Origin: Bisporella sp. PMI_857
Taxonomy: Eukaryota > Ascomycota > Leotiomycetes > Helotiales > Helotiaceae
NCBI GenBank assembly: GCA_021307315.1
Contig: JAJSPD010000098.1
Location: 1 to 64,000, forward strand
DNA length: 64,000 bases
Reading direction: 5' to 3'
Position numbers and translations under genes: made by a program. The notes under the pieces are model-generated. The model was not told the origin of the DNA. It did not search any database and saw nothing but the letters and a program-made list of their open reading frames with translations. Below are positions 23,742 through 59,401 of this stretch, one piece after another (position 1 is the stretch's first letter; every line of letters begins with the position of its first letter).

Positions 23742-24750
23742 ATAGAATTAGATCATTCACTAGAGCTAAATAATACGATTTAACGTCTATCCCTGCGTGC
23801 CGAGACGCACCCTGTAACGAGACAAAACGTAGGTACTTCGAGTTCAAGCGACTTAAAATCTGTGAACGAATAAAAACTTCTATTTATTTTTATTTCAGTC
23901 GTATTATATACCTCTCCCGAACACTCCTGACCGATTAATTCCGAGAATTCTCACCGCGTCGTCGCCGCCCACCTGAATTATAGAAAGCCTCTTATTATAG
24001 TGTGGTAGGACTCCTCGACCCGACACCACCATTAAGCTCTTTTCCTTTTTTAAACTCATGGAACAATTAGATATGGATTTCCGAGTTCTATCGCCATGCT
24101 AAAAAGTCAATGCCAGTGTTGTGGCGGCCAGAGCACGTTATGTCACACGACGTCGCCACAAAGGATGATACCTCCTCCAATCAAGCGATCAAGGATCCTG
24201 ATCAGCAACGGTGTGGTTATAGTAATCTCGGTAAAATTGTAATAAAATCTGTGGCTGCTAAACGTGTGGCTGCGACGTTTGTGGCTAGACAAGATATTGC
24301 CGGAAAATCCCGCTTCCCGACATCTTCCGAGCAGAGCAAAAAGTGGCCCGTGCGAAAGCAGTCCTTCTTTCAGCGACCTTGGATGCCTTCATAACCGTCC
24401 CGTCCCCTTAATCCCCACCTACAGCATCTTACTGCGCTTTAACTCTGTAGAAACCGGCATCTTAACAACAACGGACAATTTGCCCTAGAATCCAGTCTGT
24501 AGTGGATAAGGTTTCCAATAAAATGAAGCGTCCTTCGCGTTCTGTCTGCCTTCGCCATGCAAGTGGCTGGCTAGGTTACGCTACGATACAGCCTCGTCGG
24601 CGGCGCCTACAACCATGACTGCATATCCTTCTCACGCTCAGTTCTTCAACGTCCCGACCTTCAAACCGCAGTGCTTGCACCTATTTGCCGAATTAGTGAT
24701 ACAAGTCGCGCTTGCTATAAGATCGCTCGCGAACCTCCAGCATATCTCTT

Positions 24751-27700
24751 ATGCGCCTCTTGCAACGCAAACCCAACGGCGAGATCGTCTTTCGCGAACC
24801 TACCAGCGGCGAAGTCCCTGCCTACGCAATACTTTCTCATACCTGGGAAGAAGAGGAGGTCGTCTATCAAGACTTGAAGAAAGGCAAGGACAAGAGCAAG
24901 ACTGTGAACAAGGCTGGGTGGAGGAAGATACAGTTCTGCGCGAAGCAGGCCGCAGTAGACGGACTGGAATACTTTTGGGTCGACACCTGCTGCATCGATA
25001 AGAAGAATGCGGTCGAGCTTGGCGCGGCGATCAACTCCATGTTTCGGTGGTATCAGGACGCTGCGCGCTGCTACGTTTACCTTTCGGATGTCTCCAAGCC
25101 CGACACTGGGGTGGATGACCAGAGGGCATGGGGGGAAGCCTTCAGGAAGAGTCGTTGGTTCACTCGAGGCTGGACGCTTCAGGAGCTCATTGCACCAAGG
25201 CTGATTGACTTCTTTAGCTCGGAGGGTGGGCGACTTGGGAGCAAGTTGTCGCTTGAGTCTATAATATGCGAAATTACCGGCATCGCAAACAAAGCTCTCC
25301 GAGGTGATGCATTATCGAATTTTAGCATCAGAGAGCGGAGATCCTGGGCAGAGCACCGTAATACTACTATTGAAGAAGATGAAGCTTACTGCTTAATCGG
25401 GATCTTCGATGTGTCTATGGTCCCGAATTACGGCGAGAGAAGGGACCAGGCATTCAGGCGGTTGGAGGATAAGATTCACAGGATGTACAAGGGTCAGTTG
25501 TTTACATAAATGTGCTAACTAAAGCAACGAAACTGACTAGCACAGGGGTCGATTTCGAACAATTTGCCGTCGGGCTCAACCTCGCGTCATTTCCTGAAGC
25601 TACACAGTTTGTTGCTAGAGAGAAGGAGCTGTCGAAAATGCACGAGCTGCTTCAAGATCATAGTAGTCGATCCTGTGTCATTCTGCATGGTCTTGGGGGT
25701 ATGGGAAAGACTCAGCTAGCGATCACATATGCCAGACGACACAAGGAGAAATATACGGCGATCTTCTGGCTGAACGCGAATGACGAAGACTCACTCAAGC
25801 TGAGCTTTCGGGACGTCGCTCAGCAAGTGCTGAGACATCATCTTTCCAACAGTGTGCTATCCAGCGTAGACCAAGATAAAGACCTCGATCAAGTTGTCAG
25901 TGTAGTCAAAGTCTGGCTCGACTCCCCGCAGAACGCAAAGTGGCTAATGATCTACGATAACTTCGACAATCCTAAGACGCCTGGCAATACCGACGACTCG
26001 GCAGTCGACATACGTCAATTCCTCCCTCGGTCTGATCATGGCTCGGTTATCATCACGACACGGTCGTCGCAAGTCAGGCAGGGTATACGAATTCATGTTC
26101 AGAAACTGCCAGATATTAGGGAAGGTCTTCAGATTGTGTCTAACATGTCAGGACGTAAAGGCATTGAAAAGGGTATGTCGGTATAATTGATAGTAGGAGC
26201 AAAGACAATACTAATAAGGCAGATCCTGATGCTATAGCACTTGTCAAGGAACTCGACGGCCTACCACTTGCTCTATCTACGGCAGGGGTATATCTCGAGC
26301 ACGTAACGACGAGCTTCTCGGATTATCTTCAGCTCTATAAAACATCATGGTTGAAGCTTCAGACGACAAGTCCCCTGTTGGATTCCTATGAAGATCGTAC
26401 ACTACACACGACATGGCAGATCACTTTCGATCGGATCCAACAACAGAATACAGCATCAGCAAAACTACTCAAGCTATGGGCATATTTTGATCGACAGGAC
26501 CTGTGGTTTGACCTCCTTCGGCATGCAAACTTTGTAGACGATGAATGGATACAGAAGCTTACGAAGGACGAACTGAACTTTAATGAGGCTATCACTCTAC
26601 TATGTACTTTCGGACTGGTTGATCCAGACAGGTCTCCTCAGCAGCAGGTCGGGGCTAGAGGGTATAGTGTGCATAGTTGTGTCCACTCATGGATAGTTTT
26701 TGTGCTTAACAAGGAGTGGGACAAGAGCCATGCACGTCTGGCCTTAACCTGTGTGGCCTCGGAGGTTCCTGATACAAATGAGAAGAACTGGTGGCTCTTA
26801 CAACGGCGACTTCTTCAACATGCGACACGACAAAACGCTTTTATAGCAGATGATAAGTTAGATATAGACGGACTGGATTGGGTTTTTCACAATCTGGGTG
26901 ACCTTTATTTTGACCAAGGCAAGCTGGCAGAGGCCGAGGCAATGTACTTTCGAGCGCTAGAAGGCAAGGAGAAGGCACTTGGACCGGACCACACGTCGAC
27001 ACTCTCAACGGTCAACAACCTAGGCATCCTCTATTCTGACCAAGGCAAGCTGGCAGAGGCCGAGGCAATGTACTTTCGAGCGCTAGAAGGCAAAGAGAAG
27101 GCACTTGGACCGGATCACACGTCGACACTCTCAACGGTCAACAACCTAGGCACCCTCTATTCTGACCAAGGCAAGGTGGCAGAGGCCGAGGCAATGTACT
27201 TTCGAGCGCTAAAAGGCAAGGAGAAGGCACTTGGACTGGACCACACGTCGACACTCGATACGGTCAACAACTTAGGCAACCTTTACAAAAACCAAGGCAA
27301 GCTGGCAGAAGCCGAGGCAATGTACCTTCGAGCGCTAGAAGGCTGTGAGAAGGCGCTTGGACCGGACCACACGTCGACACTCTCAACGGTCAACAACCTA
27401 GGCATCCTCTATTCTGACCAAGGCAAGCTGGCAGAGGCCGAGGCAATGTACCTTCGAGCGCTAGAAGGCAAGGAGAAGGCACTTGGACCGGACCACACGT
27501 CGACACTCGATACGGTCAACAACCTAGGCACCCTCTATTCTGACCAAGGCAAGGTGGCAGAGGCCGAGGCAATGTACCTTCGAGCGCTAGAAGGCAAGGA
27601 GAAGGCACTTGGACTGGACCACACGTCGACACTCGATACGGTTAACAACCTAGGCAACCTCTACAAAAACCAAGGCAAGCTGGCAGAAGCCGAGGCGATG

Positions 27701-29167
27701 TACCTTCGAGCGCTAGAAGGCAAGGAGAAGGCACTTGGACCGGACCACACGTCGACACTCTCAACGGTCAACAACCTAGGCACCCTCTATTCTGACCAAG
27801 GCAAGCTGGCAGAGGCCGAGGCAATGTACCTTCGAGCGCTAGAAGGCAAGGAGAAGGCACTTGGACCGGACCACACGTCGACACTCGATACGGTCAACAA
27901 CCTAGGCAACCTCTACAAAAACCAAGGCAAGCTGGCAGAAGCCGAGGCGATGTACCTTCGAGCGCTAGAAGGCAAGGAGAAGGCACTTGGACCGGACCAC
28001 ACGTCGACACTCTCAACGGTCAACAACCTAGGCATCCTCTATTCTGACCAAGGCAAGCTGGCAGAGGCCGAGGCAATGTACTTTCGAGCGCTAGAAGGCA
28101 AAGAGAAGGCACTTGGACCGGATCACACGTCGACACTCTCAACGGTCAACAACCTAGGCACCCTCTATTCTGACCAAGGCAAGGTGGCAGAGGCCGAGGC
28201 AATGTACTTTCGAGCGCTAAAAGGCAAGGAGAAGGCACTTGGACTGGACCACACGTCGACACTCGATACGGTCAACAACTTAGGCAACCTTTACAAAAAC
28301 CAAGGCAAGCTGGCAGAAGCCGAGGCAATGTACCTTCGAGCGCTAGAAGGCTGTGAGAAGGCGCTTGGACCGGACCACACGTCGACACTCTCAACGGTCA
28401 ACAACCTAGGCATCCTCTATTCTGACCAAGGCAAGGTGGCAGAGGCCGAGGCAATGTACTTTCGAGCGCTAAAAGGCTGTGAGAAAGCACTTGGACCGGA
28501 CCACACGTCGACACTCGATACGGTCAACAACCTAGGCACCCTCTATTCTGACCAAGGCAAGGTGGCAGAGGCCGAGGCAATGTACCTTCGAGCGCTAGAA
28601 GGCAAGGAGAAGGCACTTGGACCGGACCACACGTCGACACTCGATACGGTCAACAACCTAGGCACCCTCTATTCTGACCAAGGCAAGGTGGCAGAGGCCG
28701 AGGCAATGTACCTTCGAGCGCTAAAAGGCAAGGAGAAGGCACTTGGACCGGACCACACGTCGACACTCGATACGGTCAACAACCTAGGCATCCTATATTC
28801 TGACCAAGGCAAGCTGGCAGAGGCCGAGGCGATGTACGAGCGGGCGCTGCAAGGCTACGAGAAGTCGCTCGGTGTAGAGAATATCACGACTTATATCCCG
28901 GCACTAAACACTATGTTTGCCTTTGGTGACCTCTTTTCGCAAACCGACCGGAAAGATATGGCAAAGGTAATATATAATCGAGCGCTGTCTGGATACACAG
29001 CCGTCCAAGGGCCTTCCTCGAAAAGGTGTAGGCAACTTGAAGATCGGCTTGAAGCGTTGCAAATTGCGTCTGCTGGGTCGAAAGTAGGCCAAAATGAGTT
29101 TACAGAGCCCGGAGCAGCAGAGTCGAGGTCTTTGAAGCGGAAACTCCCAAGCTGGGAAGGCGGCTGA
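24751..29167 (+). CDS. NLR-1: HET - NB-ARC - TPR receptor
   Basis: Three exons 24751..25492, 25546..26172, 26223..29167 (introns 53 and 50 nt), 1437 residues. The HET domain comes first: AILSHTW at 26-32, YFWVDTCCID at 74-83, GWTLQEL at 140-146. The NB-ARC follows: P-loop GLGGMGKT 296-303, Walker B-like WLMIYDN 379-385, GSVIITTRS 412-420, and GLPLAL just into exon 3. After a helical region come 16 TPR units of exactly 42 residues (681-1352) and a short tail. Fungal HET-NLRs mediate heterokaryon incompatibility, a regulated cell death, and probably recognition of non-self; the HET domain is the death effector and the repeats the sensor. All signature motifs are intact. The start is the ATG just ahead of the conserved MRLL opening. 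The gene lies between inverted repeats at 23781 and 30025. Confidence 0.88.
26894..28909 (+). repeat. array of 16 tandem 126-bp TPR-coding units
   Basis: Sixteen in-frame 126-bp units, each starting at LGxLYxxQGK and containing AEAEAMY. Most differ at only a few positions (SDQ/KNQ, MYF/MYL, GKEK/GCEK, GPD/GLD, TLS/TLD). Units 2-4 (27020-27397) and 10-12 (28028-28405) share the same rare variants, a 1,008-bp internal duplication. The last unit is divergent, as is usual at array edges. Confidence 0.9.
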
Positions 29168-29710
29168 TTATTAGATAAGCCATAAGGGCTTCTTTCTCAC
29201 GACTCTGCCATTAACTTGCACCTATTGATGTACCGTAACTAGAGGATAGATCAGACGTCTCTGTTAAACGGCCCAGCCTATTGGCCAGATTCGGTCTAGC
29301 CGATCTTGCATCATGACCCCTATTTTCATCACTCTAGATAGTTGATTCTATTAGCTCTACAATCAAATTCATATGCCCTATTCTACAACCTATTCTATGA
29401 TAAGATCACCTATTATCTATCAGTTTGACAGTCTCCTTTAACTTCTGGTCCAGAATCGACCACCGTTGTAATGACCCCGCACAGCCATTTTTTCCTCACT
29501 AGTGCCGAACAGTAGAAGCGTACTAACGTTAAGTTGTTACCACTCACGTGATAGGCCTGAGAATCATGGCTAAGAAAAATATAGCGAGCCCAGGCGTGAA
29601 CATAGTAAATTTTATTTAGGCTAATGTACGTTACTAAGCATTGAAACATGTGGACTTTCTCATCCCACCGGCGTAACTTCCGGACTGTATTCTTTTCCTC
29701 TCTGGGTGTC
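29168..29710. other. spacer after NLR-1, degenerate subterminal sequence
   Basis: No gene. Words such as CACGTGATAGGCC near 29547 resemble the subterminal CACGTG-containing parts of the inverted-repeat family, but too weakly for alignment by eye. Confidence 0.3.
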
Positions 29711-30025
29711 TTTAAAATTTAGAGCCATATTATTTGGTGACAGGACCTTTCCTCAAGTGCTCCGAATTTTGAAAAGACTTTAATAGTCGCGATTAAACAG
29801 GGGGGGACAGTGGAAGTGGCGATCCGTGGCGTGATTAAAACAATCGATAGCATAATTAACCGCACTCTTTTTCTTGTTGCTAAGTAGTCTCCTTAGGGAG
29901 AAATAGTTAAAGAAAGTAATATATTAATAACAACTTCATAGACTTACTAAGAAAAAGTTTGTGATTCCAAAACTAAAAGTTCGTCTCGTGACAGGGTGCG
30001 TCTCGGGACGCAGGGACGGACGTTA
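29711..30025. repeat. tandem subterminal repeat, copy 1 (uninterrupted)
   Basis: This 315-bp stretch, ending in the inverted-repeat end ...GGGACGGACGTTA, recurs 327 bp further on as copy 2. Landmarks AAGTGCTCCGAATTTT, GACTTTAATAGTC, CCTTAGGGA and TATTAATAACAACTTC occur in both in the same order. In this copy the TA at 29920-29921 is uninterrupted, providing the empty site for the NLR-2 insertion. Confidence 0.8.
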
Positions 30026-30037
30026 GACACTATGTAT

Positions 30038-30248
30038 CTTCAAATTTGGGAGCTATATTTTTTGGATATAAAACCTTTCCCCAAGTGCTCCGAATTTTAA
30101 AGAGACTTTAATAGTCCGATTAAGCAGGGGGGAACGGCTGAAGTGGCGATCGGTGGCGTCATTAAAACGATCGATAGCATGACTAACCACAATCTTTTTC
30201 TTATTGCCAAGTGGTTTCCTTAGGGACAAATAGTTATATAAAGTGGTA
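30038..30248. repeat. tandem subterminal repeat, copy 2, left part
   Basis: Left two-thirds of the second copy, broken at TA 30247-30248 by the NLR-2 element. The remainder resumes at 34651 (TATTAATAACAACTTC) and ends at 34754. The two parts sum to 315 bp, the length of copy 1. Confidence 0.8.
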
Positions 30249-30925
30249 ACGTCCGTCCCTGCGTAGCGAGAAACCCACCGTGCCGAGAAAAATGAAGGGT
30301 ACTTTGACTTCAAGCAATTCTAACTTTATATAAACATCGAAATTTACTAAGCTTTCTAATAGTCATAAACTATGACTGCTTCTAAATACTCCCTAAACTA
30401 GCTACCTAGAAATTTATAACTATCATCGTCGTCACGCCTAATTTATGGTGGGGTCTTATTTTATTGTATAACAGAGGTTTTCCACCACAATACCTATGTC
30501 AACCTTTTACCGCTGTTGTAATTTAAAAACCATTTTTATCCGAGCCTGTGAGGCCTTTAGAACTACTGAAAAGTTATTGCCAGCCTTGTGGTTGTTATAA
30601 TAGGCAAATTTCAGCAATACCGCCACGTGAATTGGTACCTCTCGACAAAGCGACCAACTAGTTTTGGTTAGTACAAAACAAGCCCAGTCAAGTCCAACTT
30701 ATGTAATCTTGTGGCTGCTACGAACTGTAGCTGACGCAAAGCTGCAGATCGGGTGTCAAGTTAGATCACACACACCTGGCTAGAGGTGTGCAGAGAACGG
30801 ACTAGAATATTCCAGACAACCGTTGAACATTAATGTAGAGTATATAGACATCAAGCTTCCCAAGCCTCTATTTATCAAAGTTATAAAATATATATACATA
30901 AAATCACAAGTACGTGACAAAAGAC

Positions 30926-33766
30926 CTACCTGAGCCTAGACTTGATTTTTTGGAATAGCTTATTGCGTTTTGACAACGCTCTCTTCTGAAGATCGTTAAT
31001 AGGCTCTTTGACTCTTGTGAGAACCTTGTTGTCCATCCTTTTATTCAAAGTGCGAAGTCTGTTCTCCACACTTCGAGAACTTGGATGGTCAAGTCCAACG
31101 ACTTTCTCAAAACCAGCTAAAGCCTTCGAATACATTATCCTAGCCTTAGGTATATCAGCTTGACTTTCGAGGAGAGAACCAAGTGCCCACATAGTATTCA
31201 ACGCTGGGATGTGAGTCTGAATATTCTCATCACCCAGAGCCTTCTCGTACCCAGCCAGCGCTTGCTCGTACATCGACTCGGCCTCTGCGAGCTTGCCCTG
31301 ATCTGCATAGAGAAGCCCCAGGTTGTTGACCGTGTTGAGCGTCGATATGTGCTCTGCGCCGAGCGCCTTCTCCTTCCCAGCCAACGCCCGCTCGTACATC
31401 GACTCGGCCTCTGCGAGCTTGCCCTGACTTTTGTAGAGGTTCCCCAGGTTGTTGACCGTGTCGAGCGTCGATATGTGCTCTGCGCCGAGCGCCTTCTCCT
31501 TCCCAGCCAGCGCCCGCTCGTACATCGACTCGGCCTCTGCGAGCTTGCCCTGATCTGCGTAGAGGAGCCCCAGGTTGTTGACCGTGTCGAGCGTCGATGT
31601 GTGCTCTGCGCCGAGCGCCTTCTCCTTCCCAGCTAGCGCCCGCTCGTACATCGACTCGGCCTCTGCGAGCTTGCCCTGATCTGCGTAGAGGAGCCCCAGG
31701 TTGTAATAAGCCCAGTCCATGCCATCGTCGGCAACCAGACCCTTTACAACGATATACGAGCATCTGGCTGCATGCTGGAGAAGTCGACGTTGCATCAACC
31801 ATGGCCGACCATCTTCCTCTCCAGGAACATGTGCTCCCACGGACTTTATAGCCAGTCTAGCTAGATCAAAATTCCACTCTCGGTTTAGAGCGTGAATGGT
31901 CCAAGAGTGAACGCATCCATGAATGCTGTACCCGTTGGACTCAATCCGCTGCTCTGAAGACGTGGCTACCTCCACCAGCCCATGGTCACTCAAGATCCGC
32001 ACCGCATCGTGGAAGCTTAACTCATCCGCAGTAAGCTCTCGTATCCATTCTGGATCATTAGAGTCGCCATGCCGAAGAAGTTCGAACCAAAGATCCTGGT
32101 TATCAAAATACGCCCACAAGCGAAGCAACTTTGCCGAGAGAAAGTTTCGCTGTTCGACGTGATCGTATGAGATCTGCCATGTAGAATAAAGCGTTCGGTC
32201 TTCGTAAGAGCCCAGCTTCGGACTCGTATTCTGGAGTTTCGCCCACGACTCCTTATATAGCCGAAAGTAGTCAGCGGAACTTATCGACACTTGATTCAAA
32301 TATGCTCCAGCGGTAGCAAGTGCCAGTGGAAACCCATCCAACTCTTTGGCCAGCTTTATAGCATCCGGATCTAGTACTGATGTTAAGGCTGAAACAATGA
32401 ATTCAGAGTATCCTTACCATTTACTAGTCCCTCTCGTCTAGAGGTGTATGACAGAATCTCAAGACTCTCCTGCACGTTACTTAGCTTCCGGAGGTGGAAA
32501 GGATAGCCGATGTCGACCTGCGACGATCGCGTTGTGACAATAACTGATCCTTGATATGCTTCGGGGAGAAATAGTTCGATATCCACAGCTGCCGGATCTC
32601 TATTGCCTGCTATTTTGGGGTTGTCGTAATTATCATAAATTAATAGCCATCGTGTATGGTCAGGAAGGCTCAGCCATGCCTTGACAGCATCTACTACCCG
32701 GTCTAGATTCTCGTTGAAATCTATATTGCTTACCCAACTAGCCGAGGGATGCTGTCGTAATATCTGCTTAGCAATCTTGATAAAGCTTTGCTTCAAAGAA
32801 TCCTTGTCCTTAATGTTCAGCCAGAATATTGCCGAGTAGTTGTCTTTGTGCCGCTTTGCATATGCAATACTTAGTTGTGTCTTGCCGATTCCGCCTAGAC
32901 CGTGAAGAACAATAGTCTTGCGGGAGCCATCACTTTTCAATTTTGTATGCATTTCCGCGAGCTCTTTCTCTCTTGCTACAAAGTTCTCGAGCTGAGGAAC
33001 ATCAAAGAGGCTAAAGGTGATTGAGAAGTCCTCGCGCTTAACTTCTGCTCTAGTCTTATCTCGGAGTCGCTTTAACGCTTTATCTCTCCCTTCGCCGTAG
33101 ATGATTGGCATACTGATATCCAAAATGCCGAGTAAAGAGTATGCCTGATCCTCTTCGCGTGTTGTCTTGCGCCTCCCTGCCCATGACATTCGCTCGGCGA
33201 TGGTAAAACCAAACAAGCTATTTCCTCGAAGAGCTTTGGCAGGAATCCCTGTTATTTCGCAGACGTGATGTTCTAGAATGGACTTGTCACCTAATAGCTC
33301 CCCTTCCTTCGAGAAGAACTCAACGAATGCCGGAGCAATGAGCTCTTGAAGCGTCCAGCCTCGAGTGAACCATTTGCTTTCTCGAAATGCCGATTCCCAA
33401 GCCAGGTCGTTAATCTTGACGACAGGTCTCGACACACCCGATAAGTAAACATAGCATTTCGTTGCCTCACGGTACCAACGAAACATAGAGTTGATGGCCT
33501 CCGTGAGCTCGGCGCTGCTCGATTTGTCGATGCAACATGTGTCCACCCAAAAGTATTGTAGGCCGTCACGCCTCGCCTGTTCTCCGCAGAACCGGGTCTT
33601 CTCATAGCCAGCCTTCTTCATGCCGCTACCATCTCGCAGATCTTCAAAGGTCACCTCTCTTCTCCCCATGTGTGCGAAAGTATGGCATATTCTTGGGGGT
33701 CTTATCGGCAAAGAACGTGGTCAGGCTGAGCTCGCCGTCGTTATTGTATCGAAGCAGGCGTATCAT
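30926..33766 (-). CDS. NLR-2: HET - NB-ARC - TPR receptor with frameshifts in the HET start
   Basis: Two exons: 33766..32418 and 32370..30926 (47-nt intron, GTAAGG...ACTAG). HET: DGLQYFWVDTCCID, GWTLQELIAP. NB-ARC: FVAREKELAEMH, P-loop GLGGIGKTQ, WLLIYDN, GSVIVTTRSS, GFPLALATAGAYL. Four 42-residue TPR units (LYADQGKLAEAESMY) end the protein, followed by a basic tail. Unlike NLR-1 it has no intron between HET and NB-ARC. The conserved YAILSHTW lies in a different frame from both its flanks. A G5 run (33695-33699 on +) and a GAGAG stretch (about 33655-33665) each shift frame within 40 bp, so the N-terminal 35 residues are disconnected. Translation could restart at the Met before GRREVTFEDL, giving a truncated HET. 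Everything downstream is intact, so the lesion is recent or a sequence error. Confidence 0.8.
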
Positions 33767-33894
33767 TCTGCCAGCACCGAGACGGCGAAAAGGACGAGTT
33801 CTCGGTGAGCCTTAGTAACTGAGTCGCATATGGTTGAAGTGTTTGTTAAATTAAAGAATATGTTGGATCGAGGATGTTGGATTAAAGCACTCAT

Positions 33895-34055
33895 GTCGAC
33901 TCAGCTGAACGCAGCCTCGTGGGAAGGTGGCATCGTTGTGCATTGCCGCAAGCGCGCAAGGCCAGTCACTGTAGGAGCTCATGGCTGGCTGTCTACGCCA
34001 CTTAATCCTCATGCGCCATTGCACCATAACCTGTTGTCGCCAAGAGATGTACAAT
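33895..34055 (-). promoter_or_regulatory. upstream block shared with NLR-3
   Basis: On the minus strand this block reads GGCGACAACAGGTTATGG, then GCGCATGAGGATTAAGTGGC, GTAGACAGCC and finally GGCTGCGTTCAGCTGAGTCG. The same series in the same order lies at 44308-44475 upstream of NLR-3. It ends about 130 bp before this gene's start codon and about 110 bp before that of NLR-3. Position and conservation suggest promoter or 5' leader; it could also be a fixed internal part of the transposable element. Confidence 0.6.
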
Positions 34056-34648
34056 GTTCTGATCATTTGGAGAAACAAAAGTGGATGACACAAGGATGGA
34101 GCCCAAATCTGCTTTGATAAATCACCCAGCAGGATTCTACTGCACGTGACCATATTACTAGATCGTATCAGCCACAGCCTGTAATCTTAATAGCCACAGG
34201 CTTGGCAAATGATTATAGTTCTGCACTAACCGAACCTAGTTAGTCACTTAGATGGGAGGTACCAGTCCACGTGGCGACATTGCACAAATTTGTATATCAC
34301 AACAATAATAAGGCTGGCGATGCCCTTTTCGTAGTCCTGAAAGACTCCCAGGCTCGGTTAAAGATGGTTTACAAATTGCGACAACGTAAAAGGTTAATTA
34401 TAGCGCTGTGATGGGAGAGCCCTATTCTGCCATGAAATAATACCCTCTGCAAGCCGGGCGCGAAGACGATGATGCGAATATAATTTTCTAAGAAGCCTGG
34501 TCAGAAGTGTTCAGGAGTGGTCAAAGCATATGATAATCACAAAATTCTGGGAACTTTCGGTGTTTGCATAGAGTTTGAATTGCTAGAAGTCGAGGTACCC
34601 TAAATTTTTCTCGGCACGCGGGGTTTCTCGCTACGCAGGGACGGACGT

Positions 34649-34880
34649 TATATTAATAACAACTTCGTAGACTTACTAAGAAAAGATTTATGATTCCAAA
34701 ACTATAAATTCGTCTCGTGACAGGGTGCGTCTCGCTACGCAGGGACAGACGTTATAGCGAGAAAATATCGTGGTCTTGGTTATCATTTTTTTCGGCACAC
34801 CGGTTTTTTCGGCACGCAGGGATGGACGTTACGGTTTGTCTCGTTACAGGGTGCGTCTCGGGACGCAGGGACAGACGTTA
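34649..34880. repeat. cluster of four inverted-repeat right ends
   Basis: Within 232 bp four copies of a right terminus end at TA positions 34649-50, 34753-54, 34830-31 and 34879-80 (CAGGGACGGACGTTA, CAGGGACAGACGTTA, CAGGGATGGACGTTA, CAGGGACAGACGTTA). The first closes the NLR-2 element and the second closes tandem-repeat copy 2. The third is of the GCCGAAAAAA subtype and the fourth of the CTGTAACGAGACAAA subtype seen at 23781. This is what serial insertion into older termini would leave. Confidence 0.75.
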
Positions 34881-38968: not shown

Positions 38969-40697
38969 ATTTCAAATAGAAGAGATTGAAAAATCGAGGC
39001 AGGAATCTTATAGTACTGTAGTATAGTTATTCAAGAATGTCGATTTGTACGGTCAGTCATGTGCACAGTCTACTAAAATGTTTGTTCGTCTTGTGCTAGC
39101 TACTGCTAGAGCTTATTTTATCTCTTAAATTTTCTTCGCAGGATTCATGAGCACCTTTCAGAATATGAGTAGCTTAACTTTACCAAAGAAGTCACATCAT
39201 AGAAGCTTCTCGGATAACTTAGATAACGTCCCTCCCTGCGTAGCGAGACACCCTGTGTGCCGAGACAGACCAATCAAATCGCAAGAATTCCAATTTTTTC
39301 TTCGTAATATCTCTCTTAAACCAACTAACGTCCCTCCCTACGTGCCGAGAAACCCTGCGTGCCGAGAAAATTGAGGAGTACTTTGACTTTAAAGACTTTA
39401 AAATCCATGCACACGTCGAACTATCCTATACTATTATCTAAGCTGTATATCGTGGCTACTCCTGAACACTTTCGACCCCTCCTACTAGAAATTTCTATTC
39501 GCGTTATCGCCCTTGTACCTGATCTGCGGACAGTATCTTTTCACCACGCTAGAGTGTTCTTTAACTATAGCTCTACTAATAAGCTCTTATTACTCTTGAT
39601 ACTTATAAAGGGGCCTTATCTGATCTTTGAACCCTTCTTGCTAAGTTAGTAACCGTCATCATTTTTGGGGCAGCTTTAGACCGTAAATTTATACAAGGTC
39701 GTCGCACGGGACAGTACCTCGAATCGAAGCGACTAACGAGATTTGGTTAGGGTACGACCCCGCGATCTCGCCGCATTCTATGACGGACGGAATTAGAAAC
39801 CAATTATCGCCTAAAATTTAAGGCTAGACAATTTGAATATAGCAGGATTAGAAGCTCGGACACTAAAGATCGAAAGTGTTGAGAATTGGTGGTGTAGCCC
39901 ACCCGTAAGGCATGAGCCATACCCCATGTGATAGCTTAGTCATCAGTGAAAAGGGTTGCACCCCTTTTACTGAGCACCTCTGTAGAGCTCTACAATCAAG
40001 TCAATTTATTCTCCCTGAACCACAACTTAGCACACTTATTTCAATAGAAAGTAAGTTATTATGAAAAACCATCGCCGCATGTTGTTCTCACCAAGATTCT
40101 GGCTGAGCTAGGGGCCTTCCAGGCCAATAGTGACTGGATGATTCTCGGATCCAAGCTGTGCAGGTTTCACGCGATTGGTGTAGACTAGCTATTAGTGGGG
40201 CTACGTAACGGCTAAGCGGCCCTGAACAGCTAGTGCGAATAAATCAGATCAAATCAGAAAATACCAAGTGCATAGCCCCTGCGCAAACCGTATTGCGCCG
40301 ATACGAAAGAGGCTGGGCGCTTCCACCGTGTTGAGCAGGATAGGTCTAAGGACCATACCACCTGTAGGCACCAGTATGCACCTGTAGGCATCAGTGTGTT
40401 GACATGTGGGTATCACACCTCTATAAGTAGAGGGATTCTCTCCTGTAGTTTAGGTTCTACAACCTTCAGCAATTGACACTTGTTTGCCCTATACTCTCTG
40501 AAGGCCACGTGACTCTTTCTATTTGAACACACCGCCACCGCTAGAGTGGGTCCTCCAGCCCGACAGTATATTTCTTCAACTCATCCGTTCAGGATCATGA
40601 ACTCCATCGAAGGCAAACAATTATTACAACACCCCTTGCTACACGCTTAACTTCCGTTGTCCTGTCTGGTAACATCGAGAGCCTAATGTAATCCGCA

Positions 40698-41603
40698 ATG
40701 CGAGGTTTCCTGTCACGTTTGGCCAGAGTCCCATCTCGTCCAAACGAAACTCATCCCGAAGAAACTCATCCTGAGCCTTCCTCTGATGTGGACAGCGAGA
40801 AAAGTGTGGACGCGACAACAGGTGTCACCACCGAAGATGAAGATGATTCATCCAGCATCCGTACTGTCCAGCAGACGTACAAGTCTCAGATCTTGCGCCC
40901 ACTCTCTCCGACTCCGACCTATCATACGTTTGACGATCAACAGAGAGGTCGATCGTCCCCCCCAACCCCATTCTATCACACAGTGGATAATCAGCAAAGG
41001 AATCGCTCTCCTTCCCCTGCCCCGACCTATCACACAGTTGATGAGCAACTAGACGGTCTCCCTGCGTTTTATTCAAAAGTCTCAATAACCCGGCCCTCTG
41101 AGCGGGTCTGTGATAGACTGAAGGCTCCTGACTACATCGATACACTTTTTCAGGCCGTTAAGAGCGGGAACAAGGCAGTAATAGTACAGCTGTTAGAGAA
41201 AGGGGCAGACATCAACGTTACAGACTCTGGTGGGTGTACAGTACTGCACGGGGCAGTTAGATATCAGGACAAGAAAATAGTCGAGTTACTTCTAGAGAAA
41301 GGAGCAGACATCAATGCAGTTTCTGGTTGGGGGACCGCACTACAGTTGGCAGTTTTCATGAACTCTAAGGAGATGGTGGAATTGGTTTTAGAGAAAGGAG
41401 CAAACATTGATTTAGCTTTTAATGGGAGGACAGCACTGCAGTTGGCAGCTTCCCATAACCACAAAGGGATAGTGGAATTGCTCCTGGAGAAAGGGGCAGA
41501 CATCAATTTAGTTTCTTATCAATGGAAGACAGCACTGCAATTGGCAGCTTCCCATAACCATAAAAAGATGGTGGAACTCCTGGAGAAAGAGGGCAGACAT
41601 TGA
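40698..41603 (+). CDS. ankyrin-repeat protein, 3'-truncated by frameshift
   Basis: 301 residues. Residues 1-115 are disordered, with three imperfect SPTPTYHTFDDQQRGRS-type repeats (the others read PPTPFYHTVDNQQRNRS and SPAPTYHTVDEQ). A short linker with DRLKAPDYIDTLFQAVKSGN leads into ankyrin repeats with the LLLEKGADIN signature, about four and a half of them. The last repeat changes frame: the annotated end is ELLEKEGRH, while the next frame continues GADIDAQDFHKVVHVL before a stop. So a one-base change has clipped the array. Fungal ankyrin proteins often serve as sensor parts in NLR-like proteins. Lies inside element A. Confidence 0.65.
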   Translation: MRGFLSRLARVPSRPNETHPEETHPEPSSDVDSEKSVDATTGVTTEDEDDSSSIRTVQQTYKSQILRPLSPTPTYHTFDDQQRGRSSPPTPFYHTVDNQQRNRSPSPAPTYHTVDEQLDGLPAFYSKVSITRPSERVCDRLKAPDYIDTLFQAVKSGNKAVIVQLLEKGADINVTDSGGCTVLHGAVRYQDKKIVELLLEKGADINAVSGWGTALQLAVFMNSKEMVELVLEKGANIDLAFNGRTALQLAASHNHKGIVELLLEKGADINLVSYQWKTALQLAASHNHKKMVELLEKEGRH

Positions 41604-41821
41604 CGCTCAAGATTTTCATAAGGTGGTGCATGTACTTTAACTTATGTAGCTTTTATTACCCCTACTATATATGACAGAATCGTATCTAAGCTCTATAGCC
41701 TTATTATTAAGCTGGATATTGTTATTAGCTTTGTGGCTGCTGTGGCATGCAAATTCATGCTTGATCGCCACCCGTGTTAGTACTTCACAAGCGACCCAAT
41801 TTTCGGTTGGCGCGACCGACC

Positions 41822-42519
41822 CCAAGGCGTTCTCGAAGAGAAATATCACAGCTGCGTGGGCTGCATGTGGTTTGTTTCCAGATAACCCAGACAAAGTACT
41901 CAGAAACACACCGGAGCCCCCTACCCAACCGACCGGTCCAGAAACCGATGCAATGAAAGGGGCTGCTTATCTACAAGATGAAGCTGTACAAACACCTGTG
42001 TCAGCGAAGGGTCTCATGTCGCTCTATGACCTGATCCAACAGGATACTCAAAAACTCGATGCGACAAGTACACAGCGCCTGCCAAAGCGTGTACAGAAGC
42101 TTGCAAATGCCGCTCAAGTATCGTTTGCCGAATGTGCCCTCTTCAACAATCGAAACCAATTCTTGACCGAGGCAAACAATGAAACCAAGGTCAGCGGTTC
42201 TAGGGAAAGCAAAAGTTATGAGCTACCAGGATATTGAGGAAGTACGAGCAAAGCGTGCTGCGAAAGACGCTGTCAAAAGCAAGGGAAAACGTGGTCGAAG
42301 GCGTAAGAATACAGAGCCATAGGCGAGTGAGGCAGAGCTAGAGCCAGAAGTGGAAGTGGTGAGTAGTACGAAAGAGGTGAAAAATGGCAAGGGCATCGTG
42401 TCCGCCGGCGTAGAAGTGCTGCGCTAGAGGCAGGAGAGCCTGAAGCAGAGCAAGAACCACAGTCAGAGCCACAACGGGAGCCTGCGTCTTGGAAGGCACC
42501 AGTGGCGTGGATGTACTGA
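41822..42519 (+). pseudogene. pogo/Fot1-type transposase, C-terminal remnant
   Basis: Recognisable C-terminal pieces of a fungal pogo-like (DDE_1 superfamily) transposase: NITAAWAACGLFPDNPDKVL, TPVSAKGLMSLYDLIQQDT, LPKRVQKLANAAQVSFAECA, LFNNRNQFLTEANNE. After a frame change near 42210 come KVMSYQDIEEVRAKRAAKD, GKRGRRRKN and finally ASWKAPVAWMY before the stop at 42519. The DDE catalytic core and DNA-binding half are missing, and at least two frame changes and one stop interrupt it. pogo-type elements use TA targets, which matches the target sites of the inverted-repeat family here. Confidence 0.75.
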
Positions 42520-43614
42520 GCGCATGTTACTGTATCTCATTTCTGCTATCACCTAATGTATTGGTCATATCTCGTCTGGATACAGTAATTCACGTCCCCA
42601 AAGCTTCTTTGTTCCTACCGTAACACCTTCTGTTCTGGACTTGGCCGTTGTAGGTTCGATTCTTTAACTTCCCATTCGTTCCTTTCTCTACTCTCGCCAG
42701 ATCGTGACGTTCTGTTCGTGTGTGTGTGTGTCCCTATACATGCACGCTGTGCACCGCCGTCTCGAGGAGATGCAGCCAGGAATTGGACTCGTAAAGCCAA
42801 TTGCTTCTAACATTTGGGGTAGTCATCCTCTCAAAACCATGCCCGCCGACGGGCGCTGTACAAGTCTGCGAAATGCGTGTCGATATCGCTACTCGTAAGG
42901 TAACTTGGTCGAAGAAAGTGTTCAGGTTGGTAGGGAGGTAGGGACGTCAACAACGTTCGCGACGTTGCGTGCTTCTGTTGTCGGCATCTGGGTCAGCGTG
43001 CTTGATGAAGCTACGACTATAGAAGTTAGGGTTCTGCAAACAAAGTACATTGAGATCTTACCGGGAAGAGCTGTGTGAACAAGGCATTGCGTTAAATGCT
43101 ACTGCTGACCTGGTATTGTTGCTGACAGTGAAAGGCCTCACATCAAGAGCCACAAGCTTGCCTGTTGATTATATAAGCGGAATAACGGCGAAATTACCAA
43201 AGCTTTACGGGAGGTGCGGGGTCAGTCCTTTCTACAGTAGCCGAGAATCGTTAGTTCCGTCGATGAGAGGTACCAAACCGCGTGGCAGCCCTGCAACCGA
43301 TTGCGCGCCACAGCAGCCACAAAGCTTATGACGGTCTCGCACAAAAAAATATGGATCTGAAGCTCAGATAAGAACTTTTAAGATGTGTAAGGGATAATAA
43401 GAGCTCGCCAGTATAGCTGTGGCAGAGGACTCGTACTAAAGCCTAAATGGAGGCTTCTTATAAATCAGGCGAAAGGGCGACGATGCGAATATAAAATTTT
43501 CTTTGGATGGGGTCAAATTGCTAATAAATAGCTGTGTAATGCTACTGATCTTTTATTTTTATAGACTCATAAGCTGGTGTGGAGTTTGAGAAGCTTAAAG
43601 TCAAAGTACCTATG
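42520..43614. other. non-coding interior and right arm of element A
   Basis: No gene. From about 43240 on, the reverse strand carries the family's subterminal words (GGTACCTCTCATC, CCACGCGG, TTTGTGGCTGCTGTGGC), i.e. the right long arm of element A. Confidence 0.5.
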
Positions 43615-44307
43615 GATTTTCTCGGCACGCAGGGTTTCTCGGCACGCAGGGAGGGACGTTAACGTCCATCCCTGCGTGCCGAAAAACCCTGTGTGCCGAA
43701 AAAACTTCATGGTTTGGGGGTCTTAAATCTCCACCACGTAAATATATAAAGTTATAATCAGTTTGCTATTGTTCTTTAGCTATTTCTCTACAAGGGCTCG
43801 ACTAGCAGTTAGAAAAATACTGCGGTTTTAGCTATGTTGTCGATCGTCCTGTGCATAGCGTCAAAAGCTACTGTGGCTATCACCCCCTGCTCTATCATAA
43901 CTATTGACCTGTCCCCGAAATCCGGGGCCATGGCATAGAGCTTCTATTAAGTCCAAATGTAGCTTCAAGGTTTGAAGACACAGAGAACAAGAAAACCTAC
44001 CTGCCCGATTTATCCGGACAAAAGTGGGAGGTACACAAAATGCCAAGCATCTTAATAAGCGAGGAAGGATTTATCTCCTTTACCTAATGTTGTATTCATA
44101 GCCACGCTAGTCGTATTTTATTATACATTATATAAACGTCACGTGAAGGTGTGGCGTTCCTCTTGAGTGGCGCAAACCTCCCAATCAAAGTAACTAACTA
44201 TTCTTGGTTAGAGCAAAATGATATAATTTCACTTATGCCATCATTTGGCGACAGGGCAGAATTTCACGTGCAGCATAAGTACGGTTTCTACCACTTGTTA
44301 TACATGT

Positions 44308-44475
44308 CGGCGACAACAAGTTATGGCCCAACCACGCATGAGGGTTGAGTGGCGTAGACAGCCAACCATGGGCTTCTGCAGTGAACCCCCAGAGCTTGGC
44401 TGGCTTTGTGTGCATGCCTGCGACGATGAACAACGATACAACCATTCCCGCAAGGCTGCGTTCAGCTGAGTCGAT
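44308..44475 (+). promoter_or_regulatory. upstream block shared with NLR-2
   Basis: Reads GGCGACAACAAGTTATGG, GCATGAGGGTTGAGTGGC, GTAGACAGCC and AAGGCTGCGTTCAGCTGAGT. This is the same ordered series as 33895-34055 on the minus strand, ending about 110 bp before the NLR-3 start. Upstream of it both genes also have a CACGTGCAG and, further out, the GGTTAG subterminal word. Probable conserved promoter or leader of this NLR subtype. Confidence 0.6.
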
Positions 44476-44582
44476 TTGACCGCCAGCCCTCCATCCAACG
44501 CCCTCCCAACTCGACAATAACTTCGCGACGCAATATTCACCGATAATCCTTTTCTTTCGGCGCCTCGAATCTAGGCTGAATA

Positions 44583-47500
44583 ATGCGTCTTTTGGAATGC
44601 AAAAACGACGGCGAGTTCACCCTTACCAAGGATATTATCGATAACATTCCTCACTATGCTATACTATCACACACTTGGGGAGCGGATACAGAGGAGGTTA
44701 CCTTTAGAGACCTGATAAATGGCACGGGCAAGGACAAGACTGGCTATAGCAAGATCCGACTCTGCGGAGAACAAGCTAGGCATGATGGCTTACAATACTT
44801 TTGGGTGGATAGTTGTTGCATTGATAAATCAAGCAGTGCCGTGTTATCAGAAGCTATTATCTCCATGTTTCGTTGGTACCATAATGCAGTCAAATGCTAC
44901 GTATATCTCGCGGATGTTTCTCGACCTACCTTGGACGCCAACGGCGAGTCTACCCAGATCTTCTGGGAATCGACCTTCCAGAAAAGCAATTGGTTTACCC
45001 GGGGTTGGACTCTTCAAGAACTTCTTGCTCCAGCATCCGTTGACTTTTATTCTAAAGATTGGGAACATTTGGATGATAAGAGATCGCTAGAGCGACACAT
45101 TCATGAAGCAACAGGAATTCCTGTCAAAGCTCTTCAAGGTGGTCTTCTCTCAAGTTTCAGTATTGACGAGCGACTTCTTTGGGCAAAAGACCGCAATACT
45201 ACACGCGAAGAAGACAAGGCATACTCGCTTCTGGGCATTTTCAATGTCCAAATGCCGTCCCTTTATGGCGAAGGGAGAGAAAACGCATTTAGGCGGCTCT
45301 GGAAGGAGATCGACACTCCTTTAAAGGGCAAGTCTTATCCCTACGATTGATGTCTGACATATCTATTCAGGCTAGCGCTAACTAGCAGCTCAGGCCCTGA
45401 AAATGACCTACTTCGTTACCTACCGTATGCTGTTGAGGCGCCCTTCAACTCATACAACCGCCAACATGAACCTGCCTGCCTCCCTAACACACGCGTCGAC
45501 CTCCTACAACGGATATATAACTGGGCTGATGGAAAAGATAGACAGGGTGAGCAATGTATTTTCTGGCTGAACGGCCTAGCTGGGACGGGAAAGTCCACAA
45601 TCTCCCGCACCGTCGCCCGCAGATACAATGAGCAGAAGCGTCTTGGAGCCAGCTTCTTCTTCTCCAAGGGTGGCGGGGATGTAAGCCATGCTGGCAAGTT
45701 CTTTACAAGTCTTGCCGTGCAGCTCGCAAACAGTATACCATCTCTCCAAACCCATGTCTATGATGCTATAAGAGAGCGGAGTGATATTACGAGTCTGTCC
45801 CTCTTCGACCAGTGGCGCCAGCTTGTTCTCGGTCCCCTATCAAGGCTAGAGAGATCCCACCAGTCTTACGTTTTTGTTGTTGATGCGCTTGACGAGTGTG
45901 AGGGTGATAACAATGTCCGGATCATCCTAGAGCTCTTAGCTGAGGCTCGATCACTAAAGACAGTACGACTTCGAGTCTTTCTGACGAGTAGACCCGAAAT
46001 TCCAATCCGACACGGCATACACCGTATCCCACAAGCTGAGCACGAGGACTTCATACTCCACAACGTATCGCCTACGATTGTCAACCATGACATCTCTTTA
46101 TTCCTGGAATACAATCTAGGGACAATCAAGCAGGAGTGGGGTCTTGGAGCAGACTGGCCAGGCGAAGTAGTTCTAAGACAGCTGGTTCTCTATGCTAGTG
46201 GTCTATTTATCTGGGCAGCAACAGCATGTCGGTTTATCTGTGAAGGGAAGCGATTCGCACATAGGAGACTAGATGCAATACTTAAGAGCAACAGTGGCGC
46301 TACTACGGCACCAGAGAAGCACCTCAGCGAGATTTATATTACTGTCCTCGGGCACTCTATTTCTTCAAACTATACAGACAAAGAAAAGGAAGAGCTAGGC
46401 AGAATGTTGAAATACACTCTTGGAAGTATAGTAACCTTACGCTCACCTCTTTCTATCCTTTCATTGAGCAAGATATTACATCTCCAAAAGGAGGACATTA
46501 ACCAGGCACTTGAGGGTCTTCATGCGATCCTTGATATTCCTAAGGATCCAACTCACTTACTCCGCCTACACCACCCTTCATTTCGCGACTTCCTCCTTAA
46601 TAAAGATCAATGCGGAGATTTCTGGGTAGATGAGAAGCAAGCACATTATACATTAGCTGCTAGCTGTATACAACTAATGTCCCGGGCACTTAAGGAGGAT
46701 GTTTGCGAATTACATGCTCCTGGTTATCAAGCCAGCCAAGTTGAGAGCAGTCGTCTTCAGAAATGCCTTCCGCCCGAAGTTCAATACGCATGCCTCTACT
46801 GGGTTCAGCATCTACAAAAAAGTGGTTCTCAGGCTTACGACGGCAATGACGCCCACCAATTTCTGCAGGCTCATCTACTACACTGGCTTGAGGCACTTGG
46901 GTGGATGGGCAAGACGTCAGAAGGGATTCAAGCAATATTGTCCCTAGAGGCTCACGTTCTAGTAATTATCTATTTATTATTTATAAGAGTTTAATTAACT
47001 TATCCTTAGGTTAACGAAAGCCCGGATATGTACACATTTATCTATGATGCAAAGCGATTTGCCTTATATAACCGATCAGTGATTGAACAAGCACCTCTTC
47101 AATTATACTGTGCGGCTCTGCTCTTTGCCCCAGAGAATAGTATTGTCCGAAGGCGATTTAAGGATTGTATCCCACATTGGGTTCAGTTAAAGCGAAGCAT
47201 TGTTCGAAGGCGATTTGGGGATCGTATCCTACATTGGATTAAGTTAAAACCAAGAGTTCAAGCACATTGGAATGCTGCGCTGCAGACGCTCGAGGGCCAC
47301 TCTGCGTCCGTCAGGTCTGTGGCCTTCTCCCCCAACGGCAAGCAGGTGGTCTCGGGATCGGACGACGACACGGTGCGGCTCTGGGACGCCGCTACAGGGA
47401 AAGCGCTGCAGACGCTCGAGGGCCACTCTGCGTCCGTCAGCTCTGTGGCTTTCTCCCCCAACGGCAAGCAGGTGGTCTCGGGATCGTGGGATGACACGGT

Positions 47501-49043
47501 GCGGCTCTGGGACGCCGCTACAGGGAAAGCGCTGCAGACGCTCGAGGGCCATTCTGCCTCCGTCAGCTCTGTGGCTTTCTCCCCCAACGGCAAGCAGGTG
47601 GTCTCGGGATCGGACGATAACACGGTGCGGCTCTGGGACGCCGCTACAGGGAAAGCGCTGCAGACGCTCGAGGGCCACTCTGCGTCCGTCAGCTCTGTGG
47701 CTTTCTCCCCCAACGGCAAGCAGGTGGTCTCGGGATCGTGGGATGACACGGTGCGGCTCTGGGACGCCGCCACAGGGAAAGCGCTGCAGACGCTCGAGGG
47801 CCACTCTGCGTCCGTCAGGTCTGTGGCCTTCTCCCCCAACGGCAAGCAGGTGGTCTCGGGATCGGACGACGACACGGTGCGGCTCTGGGACGCCGCCACA
47901 GGGAAAGCGCTGCAGACGCTCGAGGGCCACTCTGCGTACGTCAGCTCTGTGGCTTTCTCCCCCAACGGCAAGCAGGTGGTCTCGGGATCGTGGGATAACA
48001 CGGTGCGGCTCTGGGACGCCGCTACAGGGAAAGCGCTGCAGACGCTCGAGGGCCATTCTGCGTCCGTCAGGTCTGTGGCTTTCTCCCCCGACGGCAAGCA
48101 GGTGGTCTCGGGATCGGACGATAACACGGTGCGGCTCTGGGACGCCGCCACAGGGAAAGCGCTGCAGACGCTCGAGGGCCACTCTGCGTTCGTCAACTCT
48201 GTGGCTTTCTCCCCCGACAGCAAGCAGGTGGTCTCGGGATCGGACGATAACACGGTGCGGCTCTGGGACGCCGCCACAGGGAAAGCGCTGCAGACGCTCG
48301 AGGGCCACTCTGCGTCCGTCAGCTCTGTGGCTTTCTCCCCCAACGGCAAGCAGGTGGTCTCGGGATCGGGGGATAACACGGTGCGGCTCTGGGACGCCGC
48401 CACAGGGAAAGCGCTGCAGACGCTCGAGGGCCACTCTGCGTTCGTCAACTCTGTGGCTTTCTCCCCCAACGGCAAGCAGGTGGTCTCGGGATCGTGGGAT
48501 AACACGGTGCGGCTCTGGGACGCCGCCACAGGGAAAGCGCTGCAGACGCTCGAGGGCCACTCTGCGTTCGTCAACTCTGTGGCTTTCTCCCCCGACGGCA
48601 AGCAGGTGGTCTCGGGATCAGACGATAACACGGTGCGGCTCTGGGACGCCGCCACAGGGAAAGCGCTGCAGACGCTCGAGGGCCACTCTGCGTCCGTCAG
48701 CTCTGTGGCTTTCTCCCCCAACGGCAAGCAGGTGGTCTCGGGATCGTGGGACGACACGGTGCGGCTCTGGGACGCCGCCACAGGGAAAGCGCTGCAGACG
48801 CTCGAGGGCCACTCTGCGTTCGTCAACTCTGTGGCCTTCTCCCCCGACGGCAATCTACTACCTACTTTACGTGTATCTGATTATTGGGTAATAGAAGGTG
48901 AAGCGAATATTCTCTGGCTACCTCCTGATTACCGATCTACGTGTGAAGCTATTTGGGATCAAAATGTCGTTTTAGGACATTCATCAGGGAGACTTTCATT
49001 TCTTCAGTTTAGACAAGGCCCAAAGCTTGTAGTATATAACTAG
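44583..49043 (+). CDS. NLR-3: HET - NACHT - WD40 receptor
   Basis: Exons 44583..45327, 45376..46961, 47010..49043; 1454 residues. Intron 1 appears to be GC-AG (GGCAAGT donor, CTGAC branch, GCTAG acceptor); a 39-nt GT-AG alternative (45332..45370) also keeps frame. Intron 2 is 48 nt. HET: AILSHTWG, YFWVDSCCID, GWTLQELLAP. NACHT: IFWLNGLAGTGKS with P-loop 315-322, then FFFSKGGGD, VFVVDALDEC (Walker B) and LTSRPE. Twelve full 42-residue WD40 units (867-1370) and a partial thirteenth follow, then the family C-terminus (ILWLPPDYRSTC, VLGHSSGRLSFL). Same architecture as the Podospora HET-D/HET-E incompatibility receptors, where the WD40 array recognises the partner. All motifs intact. Confidence 0.9.
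47277..48850 (+). repeat. array of 12 and a half tandem 126-bp WD40-coding units
   Basis: Units start at GCGCTGCAGACGCTCGAG and are nearly identical. Differences cluster at a few codons: ASVRS / ASVSS / AYVSS / AFVNS after LEGHS, PNGK / PDGK / PDSK, and SGSDDD / SGSWDD / SGSDDN / SGSWDN / SGSGDN. These match the surface positions reported as hypervariable in HET-D/E/R WD40 repeats. The array is GC-rich and open on both strands. Confidence 0.92.
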
Positions 49044-49054
49044 TATATAGTAAA

Positions 49055-49561
49055 CTCAGTGTAGGAAAATCAATTATAATCAATTTACTAGACCCGTAAT
49101 CATAATCATAATCAAAATAAAAAACTATAATCAAAATCAAAATCAAAATCAAGGATTATAATTGATTATAATTGATTTAAAAGTGGATCCGACACGTGAT
49201 TTCACTATTAAAATTTAATTTTATTATGAATCTGTTACAGCATACGCTGTGCATTTACAAATACAATAAACAACAGTAGTATAATACGAAAAAATTAAAG
49301 CTAAAAAAAAAAAGTGAAACTCGAAAAAAGCGGGATTTATATACGTGAAAAGCTCCGAGAGCTCGGCTACAGTAAGTCACGCGTTATTCAAGGATAAAAC
49401 GTGACACTATATATAAATAATCAAAATCAAAATCAAAATCAATGATTACAATTAAGTATAATCAAAATCAAATCGAAAATCACTAAATCAAAATCAAAAT
49501 CAAAATCAATAATTATAATTAATTATAATTGATTTTTTTGATTTTTTCTTACTACACTGAG
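49055..49561. mobile_element. 507-bp AT-rich MITE in the NLR-3 3' region
   Basis: Terminal inverted repeats CTCAGTGTAG...AAAATCAATTATAAT at both ends, flanked by a TAAA direct repeat (49051-54 and 49562-65). The interior is dominated by AATCAAAATCAAA-type hexamer runs and long A tracts. It starts 8 bp after the NLR-3 stop codon. No coding capacity. Confidence 0.7.
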
Positions 49562-59150: not shown

Positions 59151-59401
59151 GTAACGTCCCTCCCTGTGTAGCGAAACACCCTGCGTGCCGAAACAGACCA
59201 ATGAAATTGAATAAATTTCGAGCTTAATAGATTGTTATATTAAAAAAATAGTCTAAAAAATATATTACTAATTTTAAATATGAATACTTTCTATTGTGGT
59301 TGGTTTAAAAGAGATATTACAAAAGAAAAAATCTAAATCCTTGCGATTTTATTAGTCGGTTTCGGCACGCAGGGTGTTTCGCTACGCAGGGAGGGACGTT
59401 A
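59151..59401. mobile_element. complete 251-bp MITE of the ACGTCC family
   Basis: TAACGTCCCTCCCTGTGT, AGCGAAACACCCTGCGTG, CCGAAACAGACCAAT at the left. The right end is the inverted copy ending GGGAGGGACGTTA. TA duplicated at both ends (59151-52, 59400-01). The interior is AT-rich and non-coding. It is the uninterrupted relative of the MITE split at 39224/50402, in opposite orientation. Confidence 0.85.

Follow-up and report, generated by a model that had tools for sequence, protein, structure and literature searches.

How an immune-type receptor gene comes to lie alone between two inverted repeats, inside another interrupted repeat, is the question raised by a 64,000-nucleotide stretch of the genome of Bisporella sp. 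PMI_857 (assembly GCA_021307315.1, contig JAJSPD010000098.1, positions 1 to 64,000 of the forward strand), which is referred to here as the window and lies on the contig abbreviated C283. The gene, NLR-2, is one of three NOD-like receptor (NLR) genes of the window, all of which combine an N-terminal effector, an NB-ARC or NACHT domain and a repeat sensor. An original prediction made from the sequence alone had proposed that NLR-2 moved as the only cargo of an element with terminal inverted repeats (TIRs). We find that the segment has moved as a unit in the past, and we consider it very probable that it represents a group of non-autonomous Pack-type Tc1/mariner elements which mobilise whole NLR genes in trans.

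The predicted borders of the NLR-2 element were confirmed to the base. The 4404 bases from 30247 to 34650 consist of a 4402-bp unit plus the duplicated TA, and TA-ACGTCCGTCCCTGCG stands at both ends, giving inverted ends that start with ACGT. The arms, expected to be similar for about 430 bp, show inverted similarity over 433 bp at 74%, which extends well past the outermost 20 bp and rises to 87% in the outermost 99 bp. When the flanks of the element were rejoined, they matched 29706-30025 in 274 of 319 alignment columns with one gap column, and this neighbouring sequence contains a single TA exactly where the element sits, as expected for a TA target-site duplication. The rejoined flanks also align through the same TA with element ends on C62 (80%, 323 bp), C30 (78%, 320 bp) and C63 (78%, 320 bp). 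The underlying arithmetic of the original prediction (an offset of 327 bp, a unit of 4402 bp and a right end of copy 2 at 34754) is correct. The interruption at a TA therefore stands, whereas the description of the two copies as a tandem repeat does not: 29711-30025 forms the right-hand terminus of the element around NLR-1 (23781-30025), and copy 2 an orphan end of the same kind, so that the empty site is paralogous and not allelic.

A second full copy of the NLR-2 element, 4472 bp long and with ends 97% identical, is located at C13:682163-686634 (L009). Compared in blocks of 20 bases, the window and C13 agree at 95-100% just inside the ends and at 25-40% just outside them. The precise empty site, the three further ends running through the same TA and a C13 copy that stops at the TAs together bear out the claim that a receptor moved as a transposon-borne unit. 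Moreover, a truncated copy on C252 is 97% identical over 3035 bp, and no element end was found in L050, a sequence examined along with it. That the family moved recently follows from the ankyrin-repeat-gene element of the window, whose copy on C51 (L051) is identical at 4294 of 4336 aligned positions (99.0%; 76 gap columns) and has unrelated flanks; the family may be active at present.

The Pfam scan covered the two long open frames of the NLR-2 element, which contain HET, NB-ARC and TPR and hold one gene only, in agreement with the predicted sole cargo; the other frames of at least 100 amino acids overlap or oppose those of NLR-2 or are short. A DDE_1 transposase domain was found neither in the long frames of the NLR-2 element nor, among the matches listed, on the window contig or inside any NLR element. 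The NLR-2 element is thus non-autonomous, without a transposase of its own in its long frames. The best named NLR protein match reaches 69% (Icmadophila), and many Leotiomycetes occur among the next matches. The TPR units of NLR-2 at 31221-31704 are nearly identical to each other (88-90%) at a spacing of 126 bp, and high internal conservation is seen in the sensor repeats of both NLR-2 and NLR-1 (26168-29167 in the latter).

The NLR-2 element belongs to a genome-wide family. A 17-base end motif, searched with up to three mismatches, occurs 15 times in the window, compared with 0.04 expected in shuffled sequence; with up to two mismatches, 110 + 114 sites were counted across the genome versus 5 + 3 for the reversed pattern. 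A genome search for further copies of the NLR-2 arms contributed, by arm similarity alone, 23 of 165 TIR sites; with five added ones there are 170 in all, of which 142 were found by the pattern; counts of TIR sites are lower bounds from the sites listed, the left end of NLR-1 at 23781 lying outside these. Twenty-one inverted TIR pairs of 2-7 kb are known (19 paired by script, and two window pairs sharing the TA at 43660/43661 that were added by hand). Their cargo is an NLR in 14 cases, DDE_1 in three, an ankyrin gene in two and BTB in one, and one pair (C25:47407) is unread. Ten of the NLR-bearing pairs were read; the other four (C146, C221, C25:13604 and C219) are included because a HET hit falls between their ends. 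If only ends found by the pattern are used, NLRs are present in 11 of 18 pairs (10 of 17 by HET hit, to which C156 is added, and an ankyrin pair missed by the script makes 18). The data support the view that the original prediction was too modest, given that NLR-1 and the third NLR of the window also lie inside elements.

The receptors carried are of several architectures. HET-NB-ARC-TPR genes are present in NLR-1, NLR-2 and C17 according to Pfam, and in C13 by similarity to NLR-2; HET-NACHT-WD40 genes are present in NLR-3, C54, C38 and C283:83370-89836. The C156 element carries a HeLo gene beside a pair of NACHT and WD40 frames. In the C82 element, NACHT and ankyrin frames occur together with DUF7708, and Goodbye matches there at a score below its cut-off. 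In the C156 element (L033, C156:214307-220298), the HeLo gene is divergent from the NACHT/WD40 frames, an arrangement of an effector-receptor pair in one transposon. A member on C63 (L031, C63:37177-42214) has a BTB_2 match as cargo; three other frames of C63 gave no Pfam match, one of them being transposase-like by eye.

DDE_1 transposase cargo is found in the elements on C30, C62 and C80, the ends of which are common to NLR elements. Over 416 bp, the NLR-3 element and the transposase element C62:10672-14994 have left ends that are 92.3% identical, and each end of the NLR-1 element has its counterpart in the transposase element C30:64550-69015 (74% over 491 bp for one end, 79% over 372 bp for the other). 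When the ends were clustered (75% over 250 bp), three of the clusters contained both transposase and NLR elements. HTH_Tnp_Tc5 scores above its cut-off only in C80 and below it in C30. An open DDE_1 frame of 590 amino acids lies behind a related end on C264; it is 68% identical to a Rutstroemia protein with the source name 'pogo transposable element protein', and relatives are common among the proteins found. The locus C268:87257 was considered as an autonomous copy and ruled out, as it has one related end only. TA duplication, ACGT ends (in all families but TcMar-Pogo), DDE and HTH_Tnp_Tc5 are the marks of fungal Tc1-Mariner elements (PMC4188875; this and the other papers are cited from excerpts of their text). 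The TA duplication and ACGT ends of the NLR-2 element, together with DDE_1 and HTH_Tnp_Tc5 in related members, make membership in the fungal Tc1/mariner superfamily the best reading.

Exons resembling the HET exon of NLR-3, 149 in number, were taken as NLR-type, with downstream NLR domains checked for the elements read. At least 25 of these exons have an inward-pointing TIR within 2.5 kb upstream, the nearest end being at 559-1452 bp, and no TIR was found within 2.5 kb downstream among the sites listed. When the exons were shifted by 3-30 kb with random strand, the mean was 2.8 and the maximum 10 in 2000 trials. Pattern-found ends alone gave at least 17 inward and 7 outward TIRs for the 149 exons, the null having a mean of 2.0 and a maximum of 8 in 2000. 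The 150 best other HET domains, none of them in the NLR-type set, had three inward and two outward TIRs upstream and the same numbers downstream, and 48 Copia reverse transcriptases had none upstream and one outward downstream. NLR-type exons near element ends are thus in excess of the local null.

Taken together, the NLR-2 segment is very probably a cut-and-paste DNA transposon carrying one receptor gene as cargo, in a family of which some members carry a DDE_1 transposase while most known members of 2-7 kb carry NLRs of several unrelated architectures. The transposase of the DDE_1 members most likely recognises the common ends and moves the NLR elements in trans. This is the best reading of the ends common to both kinds of element, the open DDE_1 frame on C264 and the Tc1-Mariner marks, rather than a demonstrated step. 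As to the capture of the receptors, ends most likely landed on either side of NLR genes where elements insert into one another, and such a new pair of ends would then have been used, making the NLR gene cargo. Capture through the ends of neighbouring insertions predicts mixed end subfamilies, and these are found in NLR-3, whose left end clusters with transposase elements and right end with NLR elements, and in C62, whose left end resembles NLR-3 and right end C30. The presence of several NLR architectures suggests more than one capture.

Several observations weigh against this explanation. The start of NLR-2 lies out of frame, its HET alignment beginning only at query residue 30, and the copy of the gene on C13 contains stops. 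Stops also occur in the DDE_1 region of all three transposase elements with both ends known, and no matching right end was found for the open DDE_1 frame on C264. The source name 'pogo' and the ACGT ends point to different subfamilies (PMC4188875). A listed outward TIR lies upstream of eight of the 149 exons, three of which have no inward one, and no more than 13 of the 25 exons with an inward TIR have a partner end listed within 9 kb. Furthermore, among the exons for which no TIR is listed, the upstream regions (about 1.7 kb) of 12 ranking near the top contained an end at two mismatches in two cases and a doubtful one at four mismatches in one, whereas nine had none with up to four mismatches. 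NLR-type HET exons therefore also occur outside such elements, and most NLRs may not be located in them.

Among other explanations, the NLR may be a selfish module of the element, a killer of the HET type that renders nuclei with and without the element incompatible and thereby favours its spread. The different N-termini of the cargo NLRs (HET, HeLo, and DUF7708 with its weak Goodbye match), the strong NLR excess near the ends and the open cargo frames in some elements (NLR-1 and C17) are in line with such a role. Given that several cargo genes are broken or mutated, as expected for passengers, and that ankyrin and BTB cargo occur too, we regard it as unlikely. A broader proposal would see a transposon family specialised on immune-receptor cargo, in which NLRs with death-inducing domains act on behalf of the elements as an allorecognition drive, and the receptor repertoire of the host would in part be a playing field of selfish receptor transposons that owes its diversity to jumping and repeat-induced mutation; it is speculative and in our opinion rather unlikely to hold.

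The mutational pattern of the copies bears on the fate of the cargo. Relative to the window, a piece of 2816 bp in the C13 copy shows 250 substitutions, among them 207 of the type C to T or G to A and 21 of the opposite type, and the same bias is weaker in pieces of 1332 bp (33 to 22) and 486 bp (10 to 2). The substitutions of the C252 copy lean slightly the opposite way. In the C51 copy of the ankyrin element, 36 of 42 changes relative to the window go from C to T or from G to A. Since the changes in C13, for which context was counted, are not mainly in CpA, the bias is referred to only as resembling repeat-induced point mutation (RIP). The bias in this single NLR copy points to a genome that handles duplicated cargo as repetitive DNA, with mutation as the result; RIP-inactivated NWD pseudogenes occur in Podospora (PMC1805685).

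Spread of the NLR and its arms by segmental duplication or by ectopic recombination between repeats would suit a region dense in nested repeats, and there is just one full (C13) and one truncated (C252) high-identity copy of the NLR-2 unit. We nevertheless consider it very unlikely, because the similarity ends exactly at TA on both sides, the empty targets have a single TA, and the left flank of the C13 copy is single-copy in the genome. As this flank occurs once, the genome yielded no empty site for the insertion on C13.

It is even less probable that the TIRs are separate miniature inverted-repeat transposable elements (MITEs), which are found next to NLR genes by chance in a region rich in repeats, the NLR never having moved with them. 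MITE-like insertions do exist in this end family, with eight short TIR pairs of 239-251 bp on C21, C226, C65, C283, C106, C156, C38 and C92, and a mimp is reported in effector gene promoters of Fusarium oxysporum (PMC3599309). However, outward ends would then be expected too, and 20 of the 149 exons have inward ends only versus three with outward ends only. For NLR-2 and C13 this explanation is refuted by the C13 copy, which comprises the complete TIR-NLR-TIR unit and breaks off at the TAs; the empty sites, moreover, lack both ends together with the gene. That the NLR elements derive, by decay or as nested parts, from giant Starships, which are likewise mobile elements of the Pezizomycotina and for which NLR, HET and NACHT genes are reported as cargo (PMC9594970, PMC12134995), is barely credible, since Starships are huge, depend on a tyrosine recombinase and carry many genes, whereas one receptor or receptor pair is carried here by small units of 4-7 kb with TIRs, TA duplication and ends common to DDE_1 elements, the NLR-2 element being a single-gene unit of 4.4 kb without the size and cargo features of a Starship (no captain search was made).

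Pack-type mobilisation of NLR genes, which we favour, has its closest parallel in the Pack-TYPE elements of plants (PMC8903248). These are non-autonomous TIR elements with host coding DNA, with TA duplication in the case of Pack-Mariner, and they take up new DNA when neighbouring insertions are mobilised together. As in their definition, a non-autonomous TIR element encloses a gene of a kind that is also present outside. While the plant examples (PMC8903248) carry short gene pieces, whole genes, mostly NLRs, are carried in this fungus. Fungal Tc1-Mariner elements share the TA duplication, the ACGT ends and the DDE and HTH_Tnp_Tc5 transposase of related members, but in Sclerotinia they are mostly 1.8-2.3 kb long and contain the transposase (PMC4188875), in contrast to the 4-7 kb, the NLR cargo and the lack of a transposase described here. 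ToxhAT, likewise a fungal TIR transposon, moves a gene that is under selection and shows both nesting of elements and RIP-like decay; it is of the hAT type, 14 kb long, has eight frames and an effector (PMC6737239), and is not a family of receptor carriers. In Pyrenochaeta lycopersici, an expansion of HET, NB-ARC, NACHT, TPR and ankyrin domains was described in a repeat-rich genome with 42 HET genes near repeats, but the excerpts define proximity only and no element ends, target duplication or cargo (PMC6034849).

A fungal TIR element family with whole NLR cargo was absent among the matches listed in a targeted full-text literature search, largely without subscription papers and preprints, and the excerpts of PMC10799480 and PMC13317346 contained no NLR cargo. 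This accords with the statement in the original prediction that no such element was known. TIR elements with cargo, Starships that include NLRs, and HET genes close to repeats were known before, and the fungal TIR family with whole NLR cargo would be a further variation on them.

Small elements with one receptor each would provide a direct and testable route for moving receptors, and the mutational cost to be expected is visible in one copy. Clusters of NLR genes like the one seen here would be transposon nests, and presence-absence variation of receptors between isolates would become predictable from element ends. An effect on the host or a benefit to it may follow from such movement.

The features of the window are compiled in the table. 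Beyond an NLR or ankyrin gene, the window elements show no long frame except an unassigned one of 195 amino acids, which also speaks against a Starship origin. The nest at 39224-50401 consists of the ankyrin and NLR-3 elements, which together split one MITE. Its rejoined halves match the reverse complement of 59152-59401 in 216 of 249 columns with two gap columns, the intact MITE reading CA where the split halves carry TA. One TA at 43660-43661 is common to the ankyrin and NLR-3 elements, and one of them must accordingly have inserted precisely at the other's end. Pairing of 43660 with 50401, or of 39224 with 43661, was ruled out by the end sequences; the ends pair as 43660/50255 and 39326/43661, which leaves 39224/50401 as the ends of the MITE.

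Table. Positions of elements, genes and target sites in the window, with the strand and the basis of each assignment
Feature	Positions	Strand	Basis or remark
NLR-2 element	30247..34650	-	TA at both ends, 4404 bp including both TAs; second full copy at C13
NLR-2 element, left inverted arm	30247..30679	+	TAACGTCCGTCCCTGCG at end
NLR-2 element, right inverted arm	34218..34650	-	433 bp, 74% to left arm
NLR-2 gene	30926..33720	-	HET (partial in frame) - NB-ARC - TPR, two open frames
Left piece of interrupted target (copy 2), orphan element end	30034..30248		alignment
Right piece of interrupted target, ends in own TIR	34649..34754		alignment, end motif
Right end of NLR-1 element (copy 1), paralogous empty site	29706..30025	-	alignment
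NLR-1 element, 6245 bp	23781..30025	+	inverted end motifs at 23781 and 30025
NLR-1 gene: HET - NB-ARC - TPR, 16 TPR_10 stretches, three open exon-like frames	24721..29167	+	Pfam
NLR-3 element, 6596 bp	43660..50255	+	end motif, end alignments
NLR-3 gene: HET - NACHT - WD40	44580..49040	+	Pfam
Ankyrin-repeat-gene element	39326..43661	+	99.0% identical copy at C51:36429-40840
Left half of 250-bp MITE split by ankyrin and NLR-3 elements	39224..39327		match to intact MITE
Right half of split 250-bp MITE	50256..50401		match to intact MITE
Intact 250-bp MITE, same TIR family, second empty site of the window	59152..59401		alignment

Element ends crowd again at 34754-34880, and a frame at 37253-38017, beside the nested elements, contains a very long acidic, Glu-rich run of low complexity.

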